Assembly: GCA_902500995.1 (NCBI GenBank)
Contig: CABVSR010000025.1
Coordinates: forward strand, 1-58,577
DNA from: an uncultured Nitrospira sp.
GTDB taxonomy: Bacteria; Nitrospirota; Nitrospiria; Nitrospirales; Nitrospiraceae
DNA: 58,577 nt
Direction of reading: 5' to 3'
Shown here: one piece after another, positions 13,998 to 27,464 of the stretch
Numbering within the stretch: position 1 is the first letter of the stretch
Layout of the letters: every line of letters begins with the position of its first letter
Notes under the pieces: model-generated
The model's input: only the letters and a program-made list of their open reading frames with translations
Told to the model about the DNA's origin: nothing
The model's database searches: none
Translations under genes and position numbers: made by a program

Positions 13998-15224
13998 TTA
14001 CCGCCCGCGCCGGGCGCCATTGCCGCGGGAAGAGCCACCTTCACCCGGCTTGCCACTGCCGCCGAATGACTGCGGTGCCATGCTGACCGGGGGACTGTGC
14101 TGCGGCAAAGAAGGGAGGGATTGAATGTTGGGTGGAGTCGGCCTCCAGAAATGGTTGGGGTGAACCTGGTAGGGCTGCGCCTGCGGAACGGACTGACTTG
14201 CGACGGGCGGGACCGATCTTGGTGCGGGAATCACCACCACGTCACCGACCTTGGCCGGCAAGCCCTGCTGGTTGAGCAGCGGCGGAACCTGCGCATAGGG
14301 TGCGGAACCCGGCTGGGGAGAGGGGTGCCGTTGGCTCATCGGCTCATGAGGGTGGCCGAGAGAAGGGGCCCTCCCGTGAAGGCCCTTCATACCGGGGACC
14401 GCTACGGAGGGAACAGAAAAGGGAACAGAAAAGATGCCCATTGTCGGATAGGTCCAGCTCGTCCACGCCTGAGCCCTCAGCGTATTCGCCTGCAACTCAT
14501 CAAACATGTCCTCGCGCTCCCGCGTGAACTGCTGTACCTCTTCTGCCGTGGATGCGCGGTCCAGGGCTTGGGTCGCGGTCTCCAATTGCTGCTGCAACCG
14601 CTCAGTTGCCGCCTGGAGGGCGATTAGTTCATGCCGCGCGCTTTCGTTTTCCCGCAGCGCCGCAATGGCTTGGACGACTTCTTTTTCGTCTATTTCAGCC
14701 GTCAGCTCGATCCGAATCACGACCCTGTCCTGCTCCAGTCTGCTGGTGAGGCGCTGCTCCGCCACCGTGACGATGCCCGCCGTAAAGCTGCGGATCTCGT
14801 CGCGCGTGACCTGCCAATCCCGCACTTCGGTCAGACGCTCGACATAGGACGCGACCTGTTCCAACGCATCGGCTTTGGCGGCTTCGACCGCCAGCTTGAC
14901 TGCATCGGCCCTGGTGTCGTGATCGCCCATGCGATATTCCGCGGTCCCGGTGACGACTCGCCGGCGATCGGAGGGTATGGAAGGGGGCGTAGCGGCAGGA
15001 GCCATCTGCGGCTTCGAAGGCGATTCCAACTCGTGCGGCGCAATCTGCCCGCGATACTGTTCGGGGATGGAATCGAACTCGTTCGTGAATGTTTGGACTC
15101 CGGCCTCGTCGAGATAGGTATAGATCGGAGTGGAGGCGGAAGCGGCTGTTGCGATGAGCGCCGGAGCCGTGATCCAGGCGACGAACCACGCGAGGATGGT
15201 CACATATGTGCGGGAGTCGTGCAT
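13998..15224 (-). CDS. DUF4124-type exported protein with coiled coil and Pro-rich tail
   Basis: About 408 residues from the Met chosen here (MHDSRTYV), which leaves a clean signal peptide (AWFVAWITAPALIATAASA). Next is a short DUF4124-like segment (YTYLDEAGVQTFTNEFDSIPEQYRGQI), common in exported proteins of this kind. The middle (about 95-215) has AEYRMGDHDTRADAVKLAVE, the pattern of LPP20/FlgT-like proteins, then a coiled coil (about 215-270). The last 130 residues are rich in Pro, Gln and Ser and end in a Gly/Arg tail. Likely periplasmic or surface-associated. Function not recognised. Confidence 0.65.
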   Translation of the reverse strand: MHDSRTYVTILAWFVAWITAPALIATAASASTPIYTYLDEAGVQTFTNEFDSIPEQYRGQIAPHELESPSKPQMAPAATPPSIPSDRRRVVTGTAEYRMGDHDTRADAVKLAVEAAKADALEQVASYVERLTEVRDWQVTRDEIRSFTAGIVTVAEQRLTSRLEQDRVVIRIELTAEIDEKEVVQAIAALRENESARHELIALQAATERLQQQLETATQALDRASTAEEVQQFTREREDMFDELQANTLRAQAWTSWTYPTMGIFSVPFSVPSVAVPGMKGLHGRAPSLGHPHEPMSQRHPSPQPGSAPYAQVPPLLNQQGLPAKVGDVVVIPAPRSVPPVASQSVPQAQPYQVHPNHFWRPTPPNIQSLPSLPQHSPPVSMAPQSFGGSGKPGEGGSSRGNGARRGR

Positions 15225-15336
15225 GATGAAGCCCCCCGTCATCCGGCCTATTCAGCATAACACAGCGAAACCGGCAGGAAGGTGGCCGCAGCTTGGACAA
15301 GTTTGCGGCGGAGGTGGAGGCTTTGTCGGCCCTGCA

Positions 15337-18105
15337 TCAGGGAACGGGCATCCTTCCCGGGGCTGCGTAGGAACCGGAGCGAGTCATGGTACGCGTAAAC
15401 CACTGGTCCACGACCTGTTCGAGTTCTTTCGGGTCGAAGGGCTTGAGCACATAGGCCTGGGCGCCGAGGCTGATCGAGCGAACGGCCAGATCCTTCGATT
15501 CGGCCGCGGTGATGATTACGATGGGAAGTTGCTGGTTCGACTGTCTCACACGGCGCAGCACTTCGAGGCCATCCATCCTGGGAATCCCGATGTCCAGGAG
15601 CGCGCCCGAAAAATCGCCCTCCTGAAGCCTGGACAACGCCTCGGGGCCGTCGGCGGAGGTTTCGACTTCGAACCCATCGGCGTTCAGGCGATCGGCCAGC
15701 AGTTGCCTGATGTCGGGATCGTCATCGACGACGAGCAGGCGTTTCTTGCCGGTAGACGGAGCGCTCGGTTCGGGAGAAGGCGGGATGACCGGCAGCATGA
15801 CGGAGAACTCCGTCCCGACTCCGGGCTGACTCCGCACCGCCAGTTGGCCGTGATGAAGATCGACCAGCGTTTTGACGATGGACAACCCGAGCCCCAGGCC
15901 TTTCGAACCGCTGCGCGGGTCCTGCTCCATCCGGAAAAAGGGGTCGAACACCTTTTCGAGAAATTCGGGCGGAATGCCGGGACCGGTATCGCGGACACAG
16001 AGAGTGGCTTGCGTCGGCTGGTCCGTGGCGACGTGCACGGAAACGAGGCCGCCGCGCTGCGTGAACTTGATGGCGTTGTGGAGGAGGTTGGTCACGATCT
16101 GAATCAGTCGATCCCGGTCCGCCCAGACGATGATAGGGGACGGCGGATAGTCGGCCGTGAGGATCTGCTCTTTTTCCATGGCCAGGGGACGCAGTTGTTC
16201 GACCACTTCGGCGATGCAGCGTTCGAGATCGACTTCGGCGGGTGACAGCGCCAACTGCCCGGTTTCGATCCTGGTGCGATCCAACAGGTCGTTGATCATG
16301 CGAATGAGGCGGCCGACATTGTCCACGATGCGGCCCAAGTATCGCTGTTGTTTTTCGTTGAGTGAGCCGGTCAGGCCGTCGAGCAGGTTTTCGACAAACC
16401 CTTTGACCGAGGTCAGCGGCGTTCTGAGTTCATGGGAGACATGCGAGAGAAAGAGCGAGCGTGACCGGTCGGCCCGCTCCAACTCGGCGGTGCGTTCGCG
16501 GACTTTGGACTCCAGCCCGACGTTCATCTCCTCGATCTGCGCATAGGCCGCGGCATTGTCGAAGGCGATCGCGACCTGGTTGCCGATGGTCACCATCAAC
16601 TCCAAGTCTTCGCCCGTCAAGGTGTTGGGCGCCGTGCGATCGACCGTGAGGGTGCCGAGAATCCGGCCCTTGGCAATCAGCGGCACCCAGATCAGCGATC
16701 TGGTGCCGGTCAGCAGCGCCAATTCCTGATTGGACGGATGCAAGTGCTCCCAGATGGCGGCGATATCCTGGATGAGCAGCGGTTTGCCGTCGCGCAGGGC
16801 GGATGCCGGAAATCCATCCGGATCCGAAACCGGCAATTCCCGCCGCCGGACGAATGCGGCAATCTCGTCCGAGACACCGAGGACACGTCCGCCGTGCAAG
16901 ACTTGGCGGTCGGCGTCATAAAAACTGATCATGGCGCGGTCGTAGTGGAGATCCTGGATGAGAGTGCCCAGGACGGTTTGCACCAGCGATTCGCGGTCCA
17001 GCGTGGAATTGAAGCCCAGCCCTGCTCGGTTCAGCGCAGTGAGTTGACTGATTTTCCGCCGGAGTTCCACCCGGGTCTGCTCCTGCTCCACGAACGCCAC
17101 CCGCAAATCTTGGTACCGTGCGTCCACGAATTGCATTTGTTCTTGAATCAGCGATTCGCGCCGGCGCGCCAGACTGCGTTGCCGGAGCTCTGTCACGAGC
17201 GCCGTGAAGGTGACAGGCACCGCAAGAAGGAGCAACGCCTCGAGCGCCGACATGGCGGGATAGTAGCGGCGGAGATAGGTCCATGCCAGCAGGGCGGGCA
17301 GCAGCGCGCCCAGAAACCAGTAGGACAATGCCGGCTCGGGTTGCCACCGGACTTCCCATTCGCACCAGGGATCTCCGTTGACGATGCAGGCGCGATCGGT
17401 GACGGTGGCGGGCGGACCGCCGTGCACCATTGTGGGGGCGGCGACCATGCGGCCTTTCGTGGATGCGCAGACCTGGTGCGCGCAGGCTTTGAGATACGGG
17501 CCGAATTGCCGGAGCGTATGCTCGGTAAACCGCAGGCGGTAAATCATCGAGTGATCCGTCACCTCCGCCACTTCACACTCGACCGTGCCTTGGGTATAAC
17601 GCTGCGCCCAGTAGAGCGCCAGCCGGGAGAACTGGGACAGCGAAAACGGCCTGGCCAGGACGCGGAAGACCGGCGAAATCACCTTGGTCAAGCCGGTGTT
17701 GAAATGAAAGTCCGGATCGCCCGAGAGTTGTTTGCACAACTCCCGCAAGTAGCTGAGGAACTCATAGGAGTAACTGTTCCATTCTTTTCTGAGAAACGCG
17801 GGGGTGACGTAGTATGCCGAGTCCGGTATGCGATCGTTCAACAGGCGACACAGCTGTGCGACGGCTTCCTCCGCCGCTTCCCGCCCGCCGGTCTTTTCCA
17901 AGCATTTTTCCAGGTGTTGAATGCTGGATACCACGAGGGTGCCGCTGACATCCGCGATCTTGTGCCCCTGCTCATCGAGGCCGAAGGGACGAAACGCCAT
18001 CACCGGGCGTTCCAGAATGGTGTGCTCTTTCGTCAGCAGCGTGCAGGGCTCCTCCTCGATTCCTGGGCGACGGTCGGGTCTGTCAGCCGGGGTGTCCTTA
18101 GGCAT
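15337..18105 (-). CDS. Membrane hybrid sensor histidine kinase with V4R-like input, GAF and receiver
   Basis: 922 residues. Residues 30-255 form a cytosolic input region ending VNGDPWCEWEVRW, the pattern that closes V4R/XylR-N-type small-molecule-binding domains. Two membrane segments follow (about 261-303), then a coiled coil (305-355), a GAF domain (355-525), HisKA with HELRTP (His558), HATPase (NAIKF, DTGPGIP, GLGLGLSIVK) and a C-terminal receiver (VVDDD, acceptor Asp in LLDIGIPRMDG, Lys in LKPFD). The start codon overlaps the end of the lipoxygenase-like gene by 8 bases, so translation is coupled. That suggests it senses the substrate or product of the two upstream oxygenases. V4R assignment is by motif only. 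Confidence 0.82.
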   Translation of the reverse strand: MPKDTPADRPDRRPGIEEEPCTLLTKEHTILERPVMAFRPFGLDEQGHKIADVSGTLVVSSIQHLEKCLEKTGGREAAEEAVAQLCRLLNDRIPDSAYYVTPAFLRKEWNSYSYEFLSYLRELCKQLSGDPDFHFNTGLTKVISPVFRVLARPFSLSQFSRLALYWAQRYTQGTVECEVAEVTDHSMIYRLRFTEHTLRQFGPYLKACAHQVCASTKGRMVAAPTMVHGGPPATVTDRACIVNGDPWCEWEVRWQPEPALSYWFLGALLPALLAWTYLRRYYPAMSALEALLLLAVPVTFTALVTELRQRSLARRRESLIQEQMQFVDARYQDLRVAFVEQEQTRVELRRKISQLTALNRAGLGFNSTLDRESLVQTVLGTLIQDLHYDRAMISFYDADRQVLHGGRVLGVSDEIAAFVRRRELPVSDPDGFPASALRDGKPLLIQDIAAIWEHLHPSNQELALLTGTRSLIWVPLIAKGRILGTLTVDRTAPNTLTGEDLELMVTIGNQVAIAFDNAAAYAQIEEMNVGLESKVRERTAELERADRSRSLFLSHVSHELRTPLTSVKGFVENLLDGLTGSLNEKQQRYLGRIVDNVGRLIRMINDLLDRTRIETGQLALSPAEVDLERCIAEVVEQLRPLAMEKEQILTADYPPSPIIVWADRDRLIQIVTNLLHNAIKFTQRGGLVSVHVATDQPTQATLCVRDTGPGIPPEFLEKVFDPFFRMEQDPRSGSKGLGLGLSIVKTLVDLHHGQLAVRSQPGVGTEFSVMLPVIPPSPEPSAPSTGKKRLLVVDDDPDIRQLLADRLNADGFEVETSADGPEALSRLQEGDFSGALLDIGIPRMDGLEVLRRVRQSNQQLPIVIITAAESKDLAVRSISLGAQAYVLKPFDPKELEQVVDQWFTRTMTRSGSYAAPGRMPVP

Positions 18106-19696
18106 TGATATTGGCCTCGAGATCGGCCGGGTACAACGCCCACGGCGCCCACGGCTTCCGTTCCATCTTGCGTTGGAGACGCGTCAGGTCTTGCCGGAAT
18201 CGCGCGAAGACGGCTTCCGCTCGCGGCTGACGGTCCGGACGTCCTGGTTCCGCCAAGGCCAGGCGAGCATAATCTTGAAGCAGGGGCGCCCGTACGACAT
18301 TGAGCACATAATTCGAGTTGACCAGCCGCTGGTACACATCCTCCGGCAGCCGGCGGGCGTTACGATAGACCCGCACGGGATGCGTCTCTGCCCACAGTTG
18401 ATAGTTCCATAACTGGGTGCCGAATTGTTCATGCTGCACGGACGCCAGATAGATCAATCGGGCCACCACTCGTGCTAATGCCGCACAGGTCAGCGGAGTC
18501 GATGCGACGCCGGTCCCGTTCGGCAACCAGCGATCCAGTTCAGCCAACCAGCTGCGGATCGACTGATCCAGCGCGATCTCCTCGTCCGTAAAGTACAGCC
18601 GCAGATATCGTTCTGCGTGAGCCTGGAACAGCCGAAAGATTCGCCGGCAGTTCGAGAACGTCGGCATGGGGAGGCCGCTGTCGAGCAGGCCGCGGTGGCG
18701 CGCGTCCTCCTCCGGATCGCATGAGCGTAGAGTGAAGTGCTCACTGGTTTTGTCGATCAGCTGGCACAGCCCCGAATAGGTCAGGCTGTAGATGGCCTCA
18801 AAGTCGCCCTCGGGCATCAGTTGCCCGAGGATGGCCAGCCGATTACTCGCATGCGTGCCGACCATGTGGGGCCACAGCAGCCGGCACAGGGCATGATCCG
18901 GTGCCAGGTGATTGCGGGTGGCGGCTGAGAAATATTCCCCTCCGACCATGTGCGTCCAGGTCCAATGCCGCACCAGCGCCGTGTGGGTCGTGGCGGCGCA
19001 GAGGGCAATCCGCGTCGCCAGAGGCCAGTTCGCGTCGCCGGGGCGGATGGACCCGAGTTCACAGCGTATCCGCAGGGGATGGAGTGCGGCGCGCCGGGAA
19101 TCTGCCCGGAACAACACATGGGCCCAGGGCGCATAGAGGTCCGGCTGGTGGCTGTATGAACTGAGCTCTTGCAAATCCCATTCGAAGTCATTGGAGCTGC
19201 CCTGCACCCGGCGGAGATAGCCCGCATAGGGGCCCCGGAGGGCCAGCGTTCCCAGATCGGGAAGGCCTTGCAGTTCGATCGGCAAGGCCGGAGGACGCAG
19301 CATCCGTTGCGGATCGAGTCGGAGCGCAGACGCCTGTTGCAGGACTGTCTGACGATGGCCTCGGCTGTAGGCCTTGTCCAGGGCCTGCTGGGGATTGACG
19401 GCAATCCCGGGCCTTCCCGCTTGCATAGGAGAAATCCACGCGCACAGCTGCGCAAGAAAGCGCATCATTCCCTCGGCACCCGACTGCCGTTCATCGTGCG
19501 GGACCTGCTCGGCGATGCGTAAGCCCGAAACGGGGATGGCGGGAAAGGCGTCCGTGAGCGGAATCAGGGTCACTGGTGATCGCCGCGGAGCCACCATCGT
19601 CACGTCTTGGGGACGAGTCTTGCGAAATTTTATTCGGGTGATGCCGTTCCAAAGACCGTTACGGATCATCCATTGCAACGATGTGATCAGGGACAT
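18098..19696 (-). CDS. Lipoxygenase-like protein with altered metal ligands
   Basis: 532 residues from the Met at 19696 (AGAGGATG before it); a start at 19732 is possible. The LOX core is clear: RHWTWTHMVGGEYFSAATRN, then HALCRLLWPHMVGTHASNRLA, matching the family's HWLxTH...RxLxxxHPxxxLLxPHxxxT...N. His244 and His249 are the first two iron ligands; His422 in YLASVQHEQFG is the third. The fourth ligand (Asn, His or Ser four residues on) is Gly426, and the C-terminal Ile that binds iron is Ala. It may bind metal differently or have another activity. The gene sits between a cyclooxygenase-like gene and a sensor kinase, pointing to fatty-acid oxidation. Shorter than plant LOX, with no PLAT domain. 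Confidence 0.75.
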   Translation of the reverse strand: MSLITSLQWMIRNGLWNGITRIKFRKTRPQDVTMVAPRRSPVTLIPLTDAFPAIPVSGLRIAEQVPHDERQSGAEGMMRFLAQLCAWISPMQAGRPGIAVNPQQALDKAYSRGHRQTVLQQASALRLDPQRMLRPPALPIELQGLPDLGTLALRGPYAGYLRRVQGSSNDFEWDLQELSSYSHQPDLYAPWAHVLFRADSRRAALHPLRIRCELGSIRPGDANWPLATRIALCAATTHTALVRHWTWTHMVGGEYFSAATRNHLAPDHALCRLLWPHMVGTHASNRLAILGQLMPEGDFEAIYSLTYSGLCQLIDKTSEHFTLRSCDPEEDARHRGLLDSGLPMPTFSNCRRIFRLFQAHAERYLRLYFTDEEIALDQSIRSWLAELDRWLPNGTGVASTPLTCAALARVVARLIYLASVQHEQFGTQLWNYQLWAETHPVRVYRNARRLPEDVYQRLVNSNYVLNVVRAPLLQDYARLALAEPGRPDRQPRAEAVFARFRQDLTRLQRKMERKPWAPWALYPADLEANINA

Positions 19697-19775
19697 CGGA
19701 CATCCTCTCTGAGGAAGCGAGAACGGCGGCAATCAGCGGGAGAGACCGTCTGTTCGAGCTCCTCCTCCATAGGTC

Positions 19776-19977
19776 TACCAGGATGTTGAAAAAGCCCTCC
19801 AGCTTTGTTCTCGCGTCGTTCAGCGGCTCAACGTACCCAGAGTACGCTTCGCCGCTTCACTTGCTGCGGCCGCGCTGGACGGCCATTTTGAACATCCTGA
19901 GCGCAGGCCTGCACGTTCTCACACGGTGGAGTCTTGCTTTCCAGAGACCCTCCAAATAGCTTTTCAACAGCCTGTTA
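19776..19977. repeat. MITE-like inverted-end element, copy 2
   Basis: 202 bp flanked by TA on both sides. Left TA-CCAGGATGTTGAAAAAG, right CTTTTCAACAGCCTGT-TA. The right TA forms part of the stop codon (TAA, minus strand) of the haem dioxygenase. It separates that gene from the lipoxygenase-like gene, whose start is 80 bases away. Confidence 0.7.
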
Positions 19978-21810
19978 GTGCGTCGCCGGCTGATGAACGT
20001 TGTGCCAGGGGAGGAACGGATTCCCGAGGCCTCGCAGGGCCGGCGCGAGCGACGGATAGTGACGCAGCAACACGCTCGTCAAGTCCTGGTTCTGCACCCA
20101 GTCGATGCCGGCTGGCGTGTAGACCTCCGGTCGAAAGTCCGCGGTGAAAAACCGATCGCTTTTGAGACGGCGCGGAGCCATCAAGGTAAAAATTCGGAAG
20201 GCCGTGTCGCTGATGGCAAAACCGGGCGGCGGTTCCTCGGCATAGAGGCCGACCATGAGATCCAGCCGTTCAAGGTCGCCTTGATACAGATCGTTCAGCT
20301 TTTTGGCCCATTCGAGATTCAATGCTTCGAAACTCTTGATCGGTTTCATGCGAAGCATGCGCCGGAAGGCATTGTAGCGAGGCACCCCGCGTTCCCGATC
20401 GCGGAAGATGTCGATGGCGGCGACGTCGAGGATCTCCGGATCCCCGTTCGGCAAGGGCTTGATGCGGCGAATCTCCTGCAGAAAGCGCGGGAAGTTGCCG
20501 AGCGTCAATTGCCCCGGATGAGCCAGGCCGAAGGAAAACCACACATTGTCGATGCCGACCTCGTCGATCGTGGATCGCGTCTGGTTGCCTTGGATGTCGG
20601 GGAACGCTTTGTAATGACTGAAGGTCGAATCGGTCAACGAATAGAAGCGGTACTCATCGGGGATTAGCGGGTGCAGCCGATAGACCGCGGCAAATTCCTC
20701 CGTCATCGAAAAGGGCGCCGCATGATGCTCGGTAGGGGAGCCGGGAATGCCGCTCCATACTTCGCTGTTGCTGAGCCGCCCCATGCGAGTCCGGATCTGT
20801 TTGCCGAGCAGCCCCCACCAGTTGGCCTTCATGCCGCTGTCGAGCGTGGGATGTTGCAGCAAGGCCGGCGTCCACTCCACGGTATGAATCTTTGCGATCA
20901 GGGCGGCATTGATCAGGCGAGCTTTCTGAAACAGTTGCTCATCCGTCCAGGAGGGATAACGCTGGAGCAGCATCTCGCAGATGGCGTTGTGTTCCAAGGC
21001 GAAGAGCGTATGAAACAGGCTGAGGCCGATCCAGTAGTTGTCGTTGAATCCGGTGAGGTCGATGCCCGGGAGCGCCCCGTCGAGCGCCTCCATGGAAGGC
21101 AGCCGTCCCTGGGTCACCGTGAGCTTTCCCTCTCGGTGTGAGCGGACATCCAGTTGCCGCTGCGCGCTGCTGCCATATAGCTGCGACGCATCCCACCAAT
21201 GGGTTTCCGTGTTGAGAAAGATGGGCACCTGTGCCGGGCATCCGGCTCGTGCGCGCTGGGCTGCCTTCGTGCGGCGCACCTTCATGGGATGGTCATGCCA
21301 TAGATCGCCTTCGGCCAAAGCGATCGGGGCGGAGGCGTCATCTTCCTGCTCGTGGCCGAACCAGTCGTGAACCTGAAATTGGATCCAGGCGGCGGCCAGG
21401 AGATTCAGAGAGGTGGCCGGAATAAATTGGGTCCGGGTCATGAGCAGCCGGCTGATCTCGCGCGGGCTCGGTGTGTCGAGGCCCGGTTCGGGAGACGCGG
21501 AGATGAGGTCGAGCGGCGCATTTCGGCCGAAGGGACATCCAGCCTTACCCATCGAAGGAGCCTGAAGATCGTTGTGTGATCCGTCGGCCCGCCGTTCCTC
21601 GAGGTCCTTACGGTGAAACGGGCAGGGGGCTGCCCCGGTTCCAGCGACGAGGGGGCCTGTGTCGAACAGGTTCCAGCGCCGCAGGTCATGCCGGAGCGCG
21701 ATCAAATTGCCGATGCCGAGATACTTCGGAAGACGATGCCAGGGGAGAACGCGGTTGAGCTGCCGGTAGCACCATGCCAGGATGTGTAACGCGCGATCCT
21801 TGCGCTTCAT
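19975..21810 (-). CDS. Animal-haem-peroxidase family fatty-acid dioxygenase (COX/alpha-DOX-like)
   Basis: 611 residues. Haem peroxidase fold of the cyclooxygenase/alpha-dioxygenase type: distal His148 in IQFQVHDWFGHEQ, HWWDASQLYG, FALEHNAICEMLLQRYP, proximal haem His380 in VYRLHPLIPDEY, and GVPRYNAFRRMLRMKPIKSF. Tyr377 lies three residues before the proximal His, exactly as the catalytic Tyr385 of cyclooxygenase (YxxH), so a tyrosyl-radical dioxygenase is more likely than a simple peroxidase. Expected substrate is a fatty acid. A Cys-rich patch (APCPFHRKD, AGCPFGRN) in the N-terminal 100 residues is unusual. Same strand as the lipoxygenase-like gene and kinase; the repeat element between them may limit read-through. 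Confidence 0.85.
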   Translation of the reverse strand: MKRKDRALHILAWCYRQLNRVLPWHRLPKYLGIGNLIALRHDLRRWNLFDTGPLVAGTGAAPCPFHRKDLEERRADGSHNDLQAPSMGKAGCPFGRNAPLDLISASPEPGLDTPSPREISRLLMTRTQFIPATSLNLLAAAWIQFQVHDWFGHEQEDDASAPIALAEGDLWHDHPMKVRRTKAAQRARAGCPAQVPIFLNTETHWWDASQLYGSSAQRQLDVRSHREGKLTVTQGRLPSMEALDGALPGIDLTGFNDNYWIGLSLFHTLFALEHNAICEMLLQRYPSWTDEQLFQKARLINAALIAKIHTVEWTPALLQHPTLDSGMKANWWGLLGKQIRTRMGRLSNSEVWSGIPGSPTEHHAAPFSMTEEFAAVYRLHPLIPDEYRFYSLTDSTFSHYKAFPDIQGNQTRSTIDEVGIDNVWFSFGLAHPGQLTLGNFPRFLQEIRRIKPLPNGDPEILDVAAIDIFRDRERGVPRYNAFRRMLRMKPIKSFEALNLEWAKKLNDLYQGDLERLDLMVGLYAEEPPPGFAISDTAFRIFTLMAPRRLKSDRFFTADFRPEVYTPAGIDWVQNQDLTSVLLRHYPSLAPALRGLGNPFLPWHNVHQPATH

Positions 21811-27058: not shown

Positions 27059-27265
27059 ATGGACGTGGCGCAGGTGTTGATAGCCATTGTAGGGTGCGGG
27101 GCGTCGGTGACGACCTACTGTCTCATGCGGTTTCCGCACATGCGCCGGGAGCCGTTCAGGCAGTATCCCGCCTGCTCGGTGTGGATCTCCGGCTTGGCAG
27201 CGCTGGCGGTGTTATGCCTCTGCCTGCTGGCGCTCATCGCGCAATATGCCTGGCAGTCGGCTTAG
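27059..27265 (+). CDS. Small two-helix membrane protein
   Basis: 68 residues with two hydrophobic segments (about 3-23, AQVLIAIVGCGASVTTYCL, and 41-64, VWISGLAALAVLCLCLLALI) and a basic loop between them (RFPHMRREPFRQ). Four Cys lie in or beside the helices. The ATG follows AAGGGGA. No family recognised. Its TAG stop supplies the left TA of repeat copy 3. Confidence 0.5.
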   Translation: MDVAQVLIAIVGCGASVTTYCLMRFPHMRREPFRQYPACSVWISGLAALAVLCLCLLALIAQYAWQSA

Positions 27266-27464
27266 CAGGATGCGCAAAAAGTCCGCCAGCGGCGTTCTCG
27301 CATCGCTCAGAGACAACGTACTGAAGCGTACGCCTCGCCTCTTCGCTTGCTGCGGCCTTGCTGGACAGCCTTTTTGCGCATCCTGCCTGGCTATTCAGCT
27401 CGTCTCACCCCTCGATAGTTACAAGGGCTACAGAGGGCAAAATGAGTTTTTCCGCAGCCTGTTA
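27263..27464. repeat. MITE-like inverted-end element, copy 3
   Basis: 202 bp, flanked by TA on both sides: left TA-GCAGGATGCGCAAAAAG, right CAGCCTGT-TA. The inner dyad CAGGATGCGCAAAAAG at 27266-27281 pairs perfectly over 16 bp with 27370-27385; the outer arm at 27445-27462 repeats the end sequence again. The left TA is part of the TAG stop of the 68-residue gene. Confidence 0.75.

Follow-up and report, generated by a model that had tools for sequence, protein, structure and literature searches.

Alpha-dioxygenases (alpha-DOX) carry out the 2-hydroperoxidation of free fatty acids, after which shortened aldehydes are released. Enzymes of this type have been described from plants (rice, 4kvj; Arabidopsis, 4hhr) and from cyanobacteria (CalDOX and LepDOX), and bacterial members have been listed for five phyla, Nitrospirota not included (PMC8720084). 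In lipoxygenases (LOX), such as Cyanothece CspLOX2 (5med), Pseudomonas LoxA (4g32) and ALOX15 (1lox), the C-terminal residue is Ile, rarely Val, and the fourth metal ligand is Asn, His or Ser in all LOX (PMC13059375). A bacterial fatty-acid oxygenation pair is known from Pseudomonas aeruginosa, the oleate diol synthase PA2077/PA2078 (PMC5155153, PMC4496055). Its oleate 10S-dioxygenase, PA2077, belongs to the relatives of RoxA (PMC4496055), and the portions of these reports available to us describe no dedicated histidine kinase. In Nostoc, a 10S-dioxygenase of the cyclooxygenase (COX) superfamily works with a separate hydroperoxide-processing enzyme, a catalase-related hydroperoxide lyase; neither a kinase nor a LOX-like pairing is described in the accessible part of a review of that system (PMC13049297). 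The locus analysed here is made of parts of known kinds. The ligand set of its LOX-like protein, the pairing of that protein with a particular kinase family, and the modular arrangement of oxygenase, kinase and FadL appear to be undescribed.

The window, a stretch of 58,577 nucleotides, represents a single contig from a Nitrospirota genome of 3.97 Mb, and its nearest named relatives are Nitrospira MAGs. We verified the three consecutive minus-strand open reading frames that the initial annotation had placed here. They encode a haem protein of 611 amino acids with an ATG start (19975..21810), a LOX-like protein of 532 amino acids (18098..19696) and a hybrid sensor histidine kinase of 922 amino acids (15337..18105); all features given below for these three genes and their proteins lie on the minus strand. 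The LOX-like reading frame extends upstream to a TTG at 19732 (18098-19732, 544 amino acids), but the ATG at 19696 is the likelier start because relatives align from there. The 8-base overlap between the kinase and LOX-like genes that had been noted earlier was also confirmed (18098 versus 18105). The same gene order was found again in other genomes, with proteins at 42-88% identity, and the grouping is therefore not a matter of chance. The haem protein and LOX-like genes are separated by a MITE-like repeat without assigned strand (19774..19975), and in the closest relative the gap is only about 46 bp. With about 41 copies across the genome, including a second in the window at 27263-27385, the repeat was rejected as a component of the system, and the copy inserted here may uncouple the two genes in this genome. 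Directly after the kinase lies a gene with a weak DUF4124 match (13998-15242). A gene of this type also follows the kinase in three other loci (L045, L046 and L050), at 51-55% identity.

The haem protein had been annotated as a COX-like dioxygenase. We found that it matches PF03098 at 2.5e-104 and that, among PDB sequences, rice and Arabidopsis alpha-DOX align with it over the full length at 1e-106 to 1e-116 (best match 4hhr, 1.3e-116 over residues 16-603), compared with 1e-16 to 1e-17 for COX (best COX-1, 1.3e-17). Every residue named as catalytic or carboxylate-binding in alpha-DOX (PMC8720084) occurs in it. In alignment with the rice enzyme, the distal haem ligand is His148 (H157 in rice; 21367..21369), the stretch from His309 to Thr314, which corresponds to the positions that place the fatty-acid carboxylate and alpha-carbon, matches H311 and T316 (20869..20886), the catalytic Tyr and proximal haem His of Tyr377-x-x-His380 match Y379 and H382 (20671..20682), and the carboxylate-binding Arg548 matches R559 (20167..20169). 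F373 and F541 also map onto rice alpha-DOX residues, and H309, T314 and R548 are kept in 14 of 14 homologues compared. The YxxH motif on which the COX reading had been based is thus present, but it is common to alpha-DOX and COX and so does not point to COX. Given the E-values and the full set of rice alpha-DOX residues, we rejected the COX identity and dropped the label; its sequence identifies the haem protein as of the alpha-dioxygenase type. It resembles the plant and cyanobacterial enzymes in its catalytic and carboxylate sites and differs from them in sitting with a LOX-like gene and a kinase. The expected product would be a 2-hydroperoxy acid or a shortened aldehyde. Separately, one in-frame TGA was seen in the alpha-DOX gene of another genome (G224; L060 / L046), reflecting assembly error or decay. 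A longer, separate alpha-DOX-type family of about 1000 amino acids (L054:1995-5177, L055:2533-5685, L068 and L070), which retains the alpha-DOX residues, occurs in about 10 Nitrospirota genomes.

The second protein carries the LOX core HWTWTH...LLWPHM, as reported earlier. Its PF00305 match (3.8e-7) lies over the gathering cut-off, but only around residues 234-309, and a profile built from 16 relatives reaches LOX at 1.6e-19 (11R-LOX). An AlphaFold2 model (pLDDT 79.5, pTM 0.84) matched many LOX chains at Z 25-32, those at Z about 30-32 with 379-449 aligned residues and the best at Z 31.9 with 379 residues aligned and an rmsd of 2.4, and its C-terminus superposed on that of LOX. The protein thus shares with CspLOX2, LoxA and ALOX15 the fold (Z about 30), the HxxxxH motif, the third His and a chain that ends at the metal site, at 15-21% identity. 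The first two metal histidines (H244 and H249, counted from the ATG) lie in HWTWTH (18950..18967) and are invariant in the 16 relatives. The third, His422, lies in HEQFG (18419..18433), which aligns with QHAAVN of CspLOX2. Here Gly426 takes the place of the Asn, His or Ser of LOX, and both His422 and Gly426 are kept in every aligned relative that reaches them; the canonical fourth ligand was found in none of these. Similarly, the C-terminal Ile or Val of LOX was not found: the chain ends exactly at ...NA in all relatives that reach this point, with Ala (18101..18103) at the position of the carboxylate ligand. The three metal histidines and the exact C-terminus argue for a metal site that has been kept, and Gly at the fourth position fits a LOX fold, since an engineered soybean LOX-1 N694G has a crystal structure (1y4k), which was among our structure matches. 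Because of the Gly and the terminal Ala, we call the protein LOX-like and not a canonical lipoxygenase; sequence and model together suggest a divergent LOX-fold family. Classical LOX require polyunsaturated fatty acids, which counts against the preferred reading given below, since this organism may or may not make them; two desaturase-family genes are present in its genome. A frameshift was observed in the LOX-like gene of a further genome (G119; L065 / L050) and represents assembly error or decay.

We then examined whether the genes occur together in 295 Nitrospirota genomes and, more widely, in 84,980 species genomes. Most of the Nitrospirota genomes searched lack the trio; a LOX-like gene was present in 12 of 295, and 22 encoded an alpha-DOX-family protein. 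In 11 of the 12 LOX genomes the immediate neighbour of the LOX-like gene was a kinase of this type, the orthologues adjoining LOX elsewhere being 42-85% identical to the kinase in the window, and in the twelfth, G187, the kinase was one gene away. All 12 LOX genomes also had an alpha-DOX-family protein, compared with 10 of 283 others (Fisher 9e-16, kinship ignored). The alpha-DOX gene adjoins the LOX-like gene in eight of the 12, and fusion of the two in G187 brings the number to nine; this fusion is a single chain of 1741 amino acids in which alpha-DOX is followed by about a dozen hydrophobic segments and the LOX-like part, and it too ends in NA. In two genomes (G085 and G151) the LOX-like gene is linked to the kinase and alpha-DOX lies elsewhere. 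The wider scan revealed a LOX-like gene and kinase side by side in a Nitrospinota MAG, adjoining LOX-like and alpha-DOX genes in Pseudonocardia, and the longer alpha-DOX type adjoining a LOX-like gene in Acidobacteria and Chromatiales (L068 and L070). No related kinase was found near the LOX-like/alpha-DOX pair in the stretches examined of Pseudonocardia, L068 and L070. The Acidobacteria locus (L068:5-12656) encodes a patatin, an alpha/beta hydrolase, a cyclase-AAA regulator, the alpha-DOX type, the LOX-like protein and a catalase-related protein, the last recalling the Nostoc system as far as the available part of that report describes it; the Nostoc 10S-dioxygenase is itself closer to COX.

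Linkage among these genes is therefore conserved in Nitrospirota and beyond, and the consistency with which the LOX-like gene and kinase stay together in relatives suggests that the kinase probably senses the lipid on which the enzymes act. It is very improbable that the three genes are unrelated neighbours or belong to a COX/prostaglandin-like pathway: linkage conserved across families and phyla contradicts the former, and for the latter the YxxH motif shared with COX is outweighed by the alpha-DOX residues and E-values. It could also be asked whether the LOX-like protein is an oxygenase at all. It might instead bind lipids or hydroperoxides and assist the kinase as a co-receptor or isomerase, leaving alpha-DOX as the sole oxygenase. 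Its kinase linkage in G085 and G151, the gene overlap in the window and the loss of the fourth metal ligand in every relative reaching that position are consistent with such a role. We consider it improbable, since the metal histidines and exact C-terminus are retained, the N694G variant of soybean LOX-1 folds, and LOX-like genes pair with alpha-DOX types in the examined stretches of Pseudonocardia, L068 and L070, where no related kinase was found.

The kinase consists of an N-terminal input domain (residues 23-258; 17332..18039), a predicted hydrophobic hairpin of two segments from the hydropathy scan (residues 259-309; 17179..17331), a GAF domain (16564..16998; PF01590, 4.6e-17), HisKA and HATPase_c (15787..16461; PF00512, PF02518) and a receiver (15409..15735; PF00072, 5.6e-29), so that the hybrid histidine kinase domain set is complete. 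No significant Pfam family, V4R/XylR_N included, was found for the input domain in 11 members, and its profile gave no matches to PDB sequences. A model of the domain, of modest confidence (pLDDT 65, Z at most 8), placed mostly H-NOX, the aromatic sensors MopR/PoxR/DmpR (V4R/XylR_N), BET3 and V4R among its top matches, and the BET3 matches included a palmitate-bound chain. Among 71 sequences, C213 and C240 are kept in all, C248 in 70 and Asp or Glu at 237 (D237 here) in 65. DmpR binds zinc through Cys151, Glu172, Cys177 and Cys185 (PMC7264223), and the Cys-x7-Cys spacing of the kinase domain equals that of DmpR. The three Cys and the acidic residue thus form a putative zinc-type site, and a hydrophobic small molecule is the best inference for the input. 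Unlike MopR, DmpR and PoxR, the domain is fused to a GAF-histidine kinase-receiver chain and not to a sigma-54 activator. Two variants were observed among related kinases: in the G009 kinase (L051:4435-7107) the receiver domain looks degenerate, and a protein of 1847 amino acids in G292 (L094:3557-9100) carries about four tandem V4R-like input domains before the kinase part.

Further evidence came from the wider distribution of the kinase. Its input domain is present in 89 of 295 Nitrospirota genomes, compared with 12 for the LOX-like gene, and we therefore rejected the idea that this kinase is exclusive to LOX loci. Of 50 loci without LOX, 37 have the gene for the fatty-acid porin FadL downstream of the kinase, and in 15 the kinase is preceded by a RoxA-like dihaem protein. 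The genome studied here holds a second kinase of the same type on contig 24 (L090), flanked by genes for a RoxA-like dihaem protein and for FadL; the former belongs to the same dihaem class as PA2077/PA2078, and the alpha-DOX and LOX-like enzymes of the window differ from that pair. At one chromosomal site, three genomes without LOX (G110, G147 and G153) have a thiamine-binding gene, kinase, FadL and alanine racemase, and at the equivalent site a LOX-like gene (in G085, G151 and RSF8) or alpha-DOX with a LOX-like gene (in G009) lies in between. In the kinase tree the LOX label was gained or lost at least four times, so a single origin of LOX-linked kinases was rejected. The kinase that accompanies the LOX fusion of G187 branches far away within the family (its branch is long and its exact placement unsure), again indicating that LOX linkage was gained or lost more than once. 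These data suggest a modular arrangement of lipid oxygenase, hydrophobic-ligand kinase and FadL. The best argument that the kinase responds to a hydrophobic substrate or product is that kinases of this one type recur beside FadL and beside differing lipid oxygenases. As to the claim that such a set-up with its own kinase had not been described, our literature searches on Nitrospira and lipoxygenase, bacterial lipoxygenase and histidine kinase, and oxylipin and sensor kinase found nothing relevant. The kinase is a member of an older, FadL-linked family and occurs outside this set-up as well.

The association with FadL and RoxA-like oxygenases in loci without LOX would also be expected if the genes formed a catabolic or detoxification unit for fatty acids or hydrocarbons, in which the kinase only induces uptake and breakdown and no signalling lipid is made. 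Patatin and hydrolase genes close to the enzymes in G187 and L068 are in line with this. In the immediate neighbourhoods scanned we saw no genes for beta-oxidation, for an aldehyde dehydrogenase or for other catabolic steps, and we regard such a unit as rather unlikely. In our preferred reading, which we hold to be probable, the locus is a module that oxygenates fatty acids and has a dedicated kinase to sense the lipid. A fatty acid, the cell's own or imported, would serve as substrate of alpha-DOX, which would add O2 at C-2 of the free acid, and the resulting 2-hydroperoxy acid would lose CO2 to give a shorter aldehyde or be reduced to a 2-hydroxy acid. The LOX-fold protein would be a metalloprotein with a site of three histidines and the C-terminal carboxylate, lacking a fourth side-chain ligand, and would draw on the same pool of lipids, where its most likely role is that of a dioxygenase or of an enzyme using the hydroperoxide. 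Substrate or product would be read by the kinase through its V4R/MopR-like domain with the zinc-type site, which probably lies in the cytoplasm, and the signal would travel onward by phosphorelay. The FadL, patatin and catalase-related genes linked in relatives fit lipid oxidation. Points against this reading are the rarity of the trio among the Nitrospirota genomes searched, the occurrence of the kinase family mostly away from LOX, and the modest model of the input domain, which has no convincing Pfam match. That the pair oxidises a fatty acid, as first proposed, is thus supported by the joint presence of an alpha-DOX-type and a LOX-fold protein and by the lipid-gene context, and is weakened by the missing canonical metal ligand of the latter.

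A more far-reaching interpretation, offered tentatively, is that the locus may be a self-contained bacterial module for oxylipin synthesis and perception, with a lipid oxygenase and, encoded at the same locus, the kinase that perceives what the oxygenase makes. The FadL-served kinase family would then swap its upstream oxygenase, alpha-DOX/LOX-like or RoxA-like, and the LOX-like protein would represent a new enzyme class whose metal site is built from three histidines and the carboxylate of Ala. The role of bacterial lipoxygenases and oxylipins is largely open, and the literature searched gave no receptor kinase for an oxylipin. The LOX-like family would be missed by motif-based LOX screens that demand HxxxN/H. 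Judged by sequence, fatty-acid alpha-oxidation would now extend to the nitrite-oxidising Nitrospira group, and a LOX-like protein and a kinase of the hydrophobic-ligand type, kept together across families, constitute a directly testable enzyme-receptor pair.
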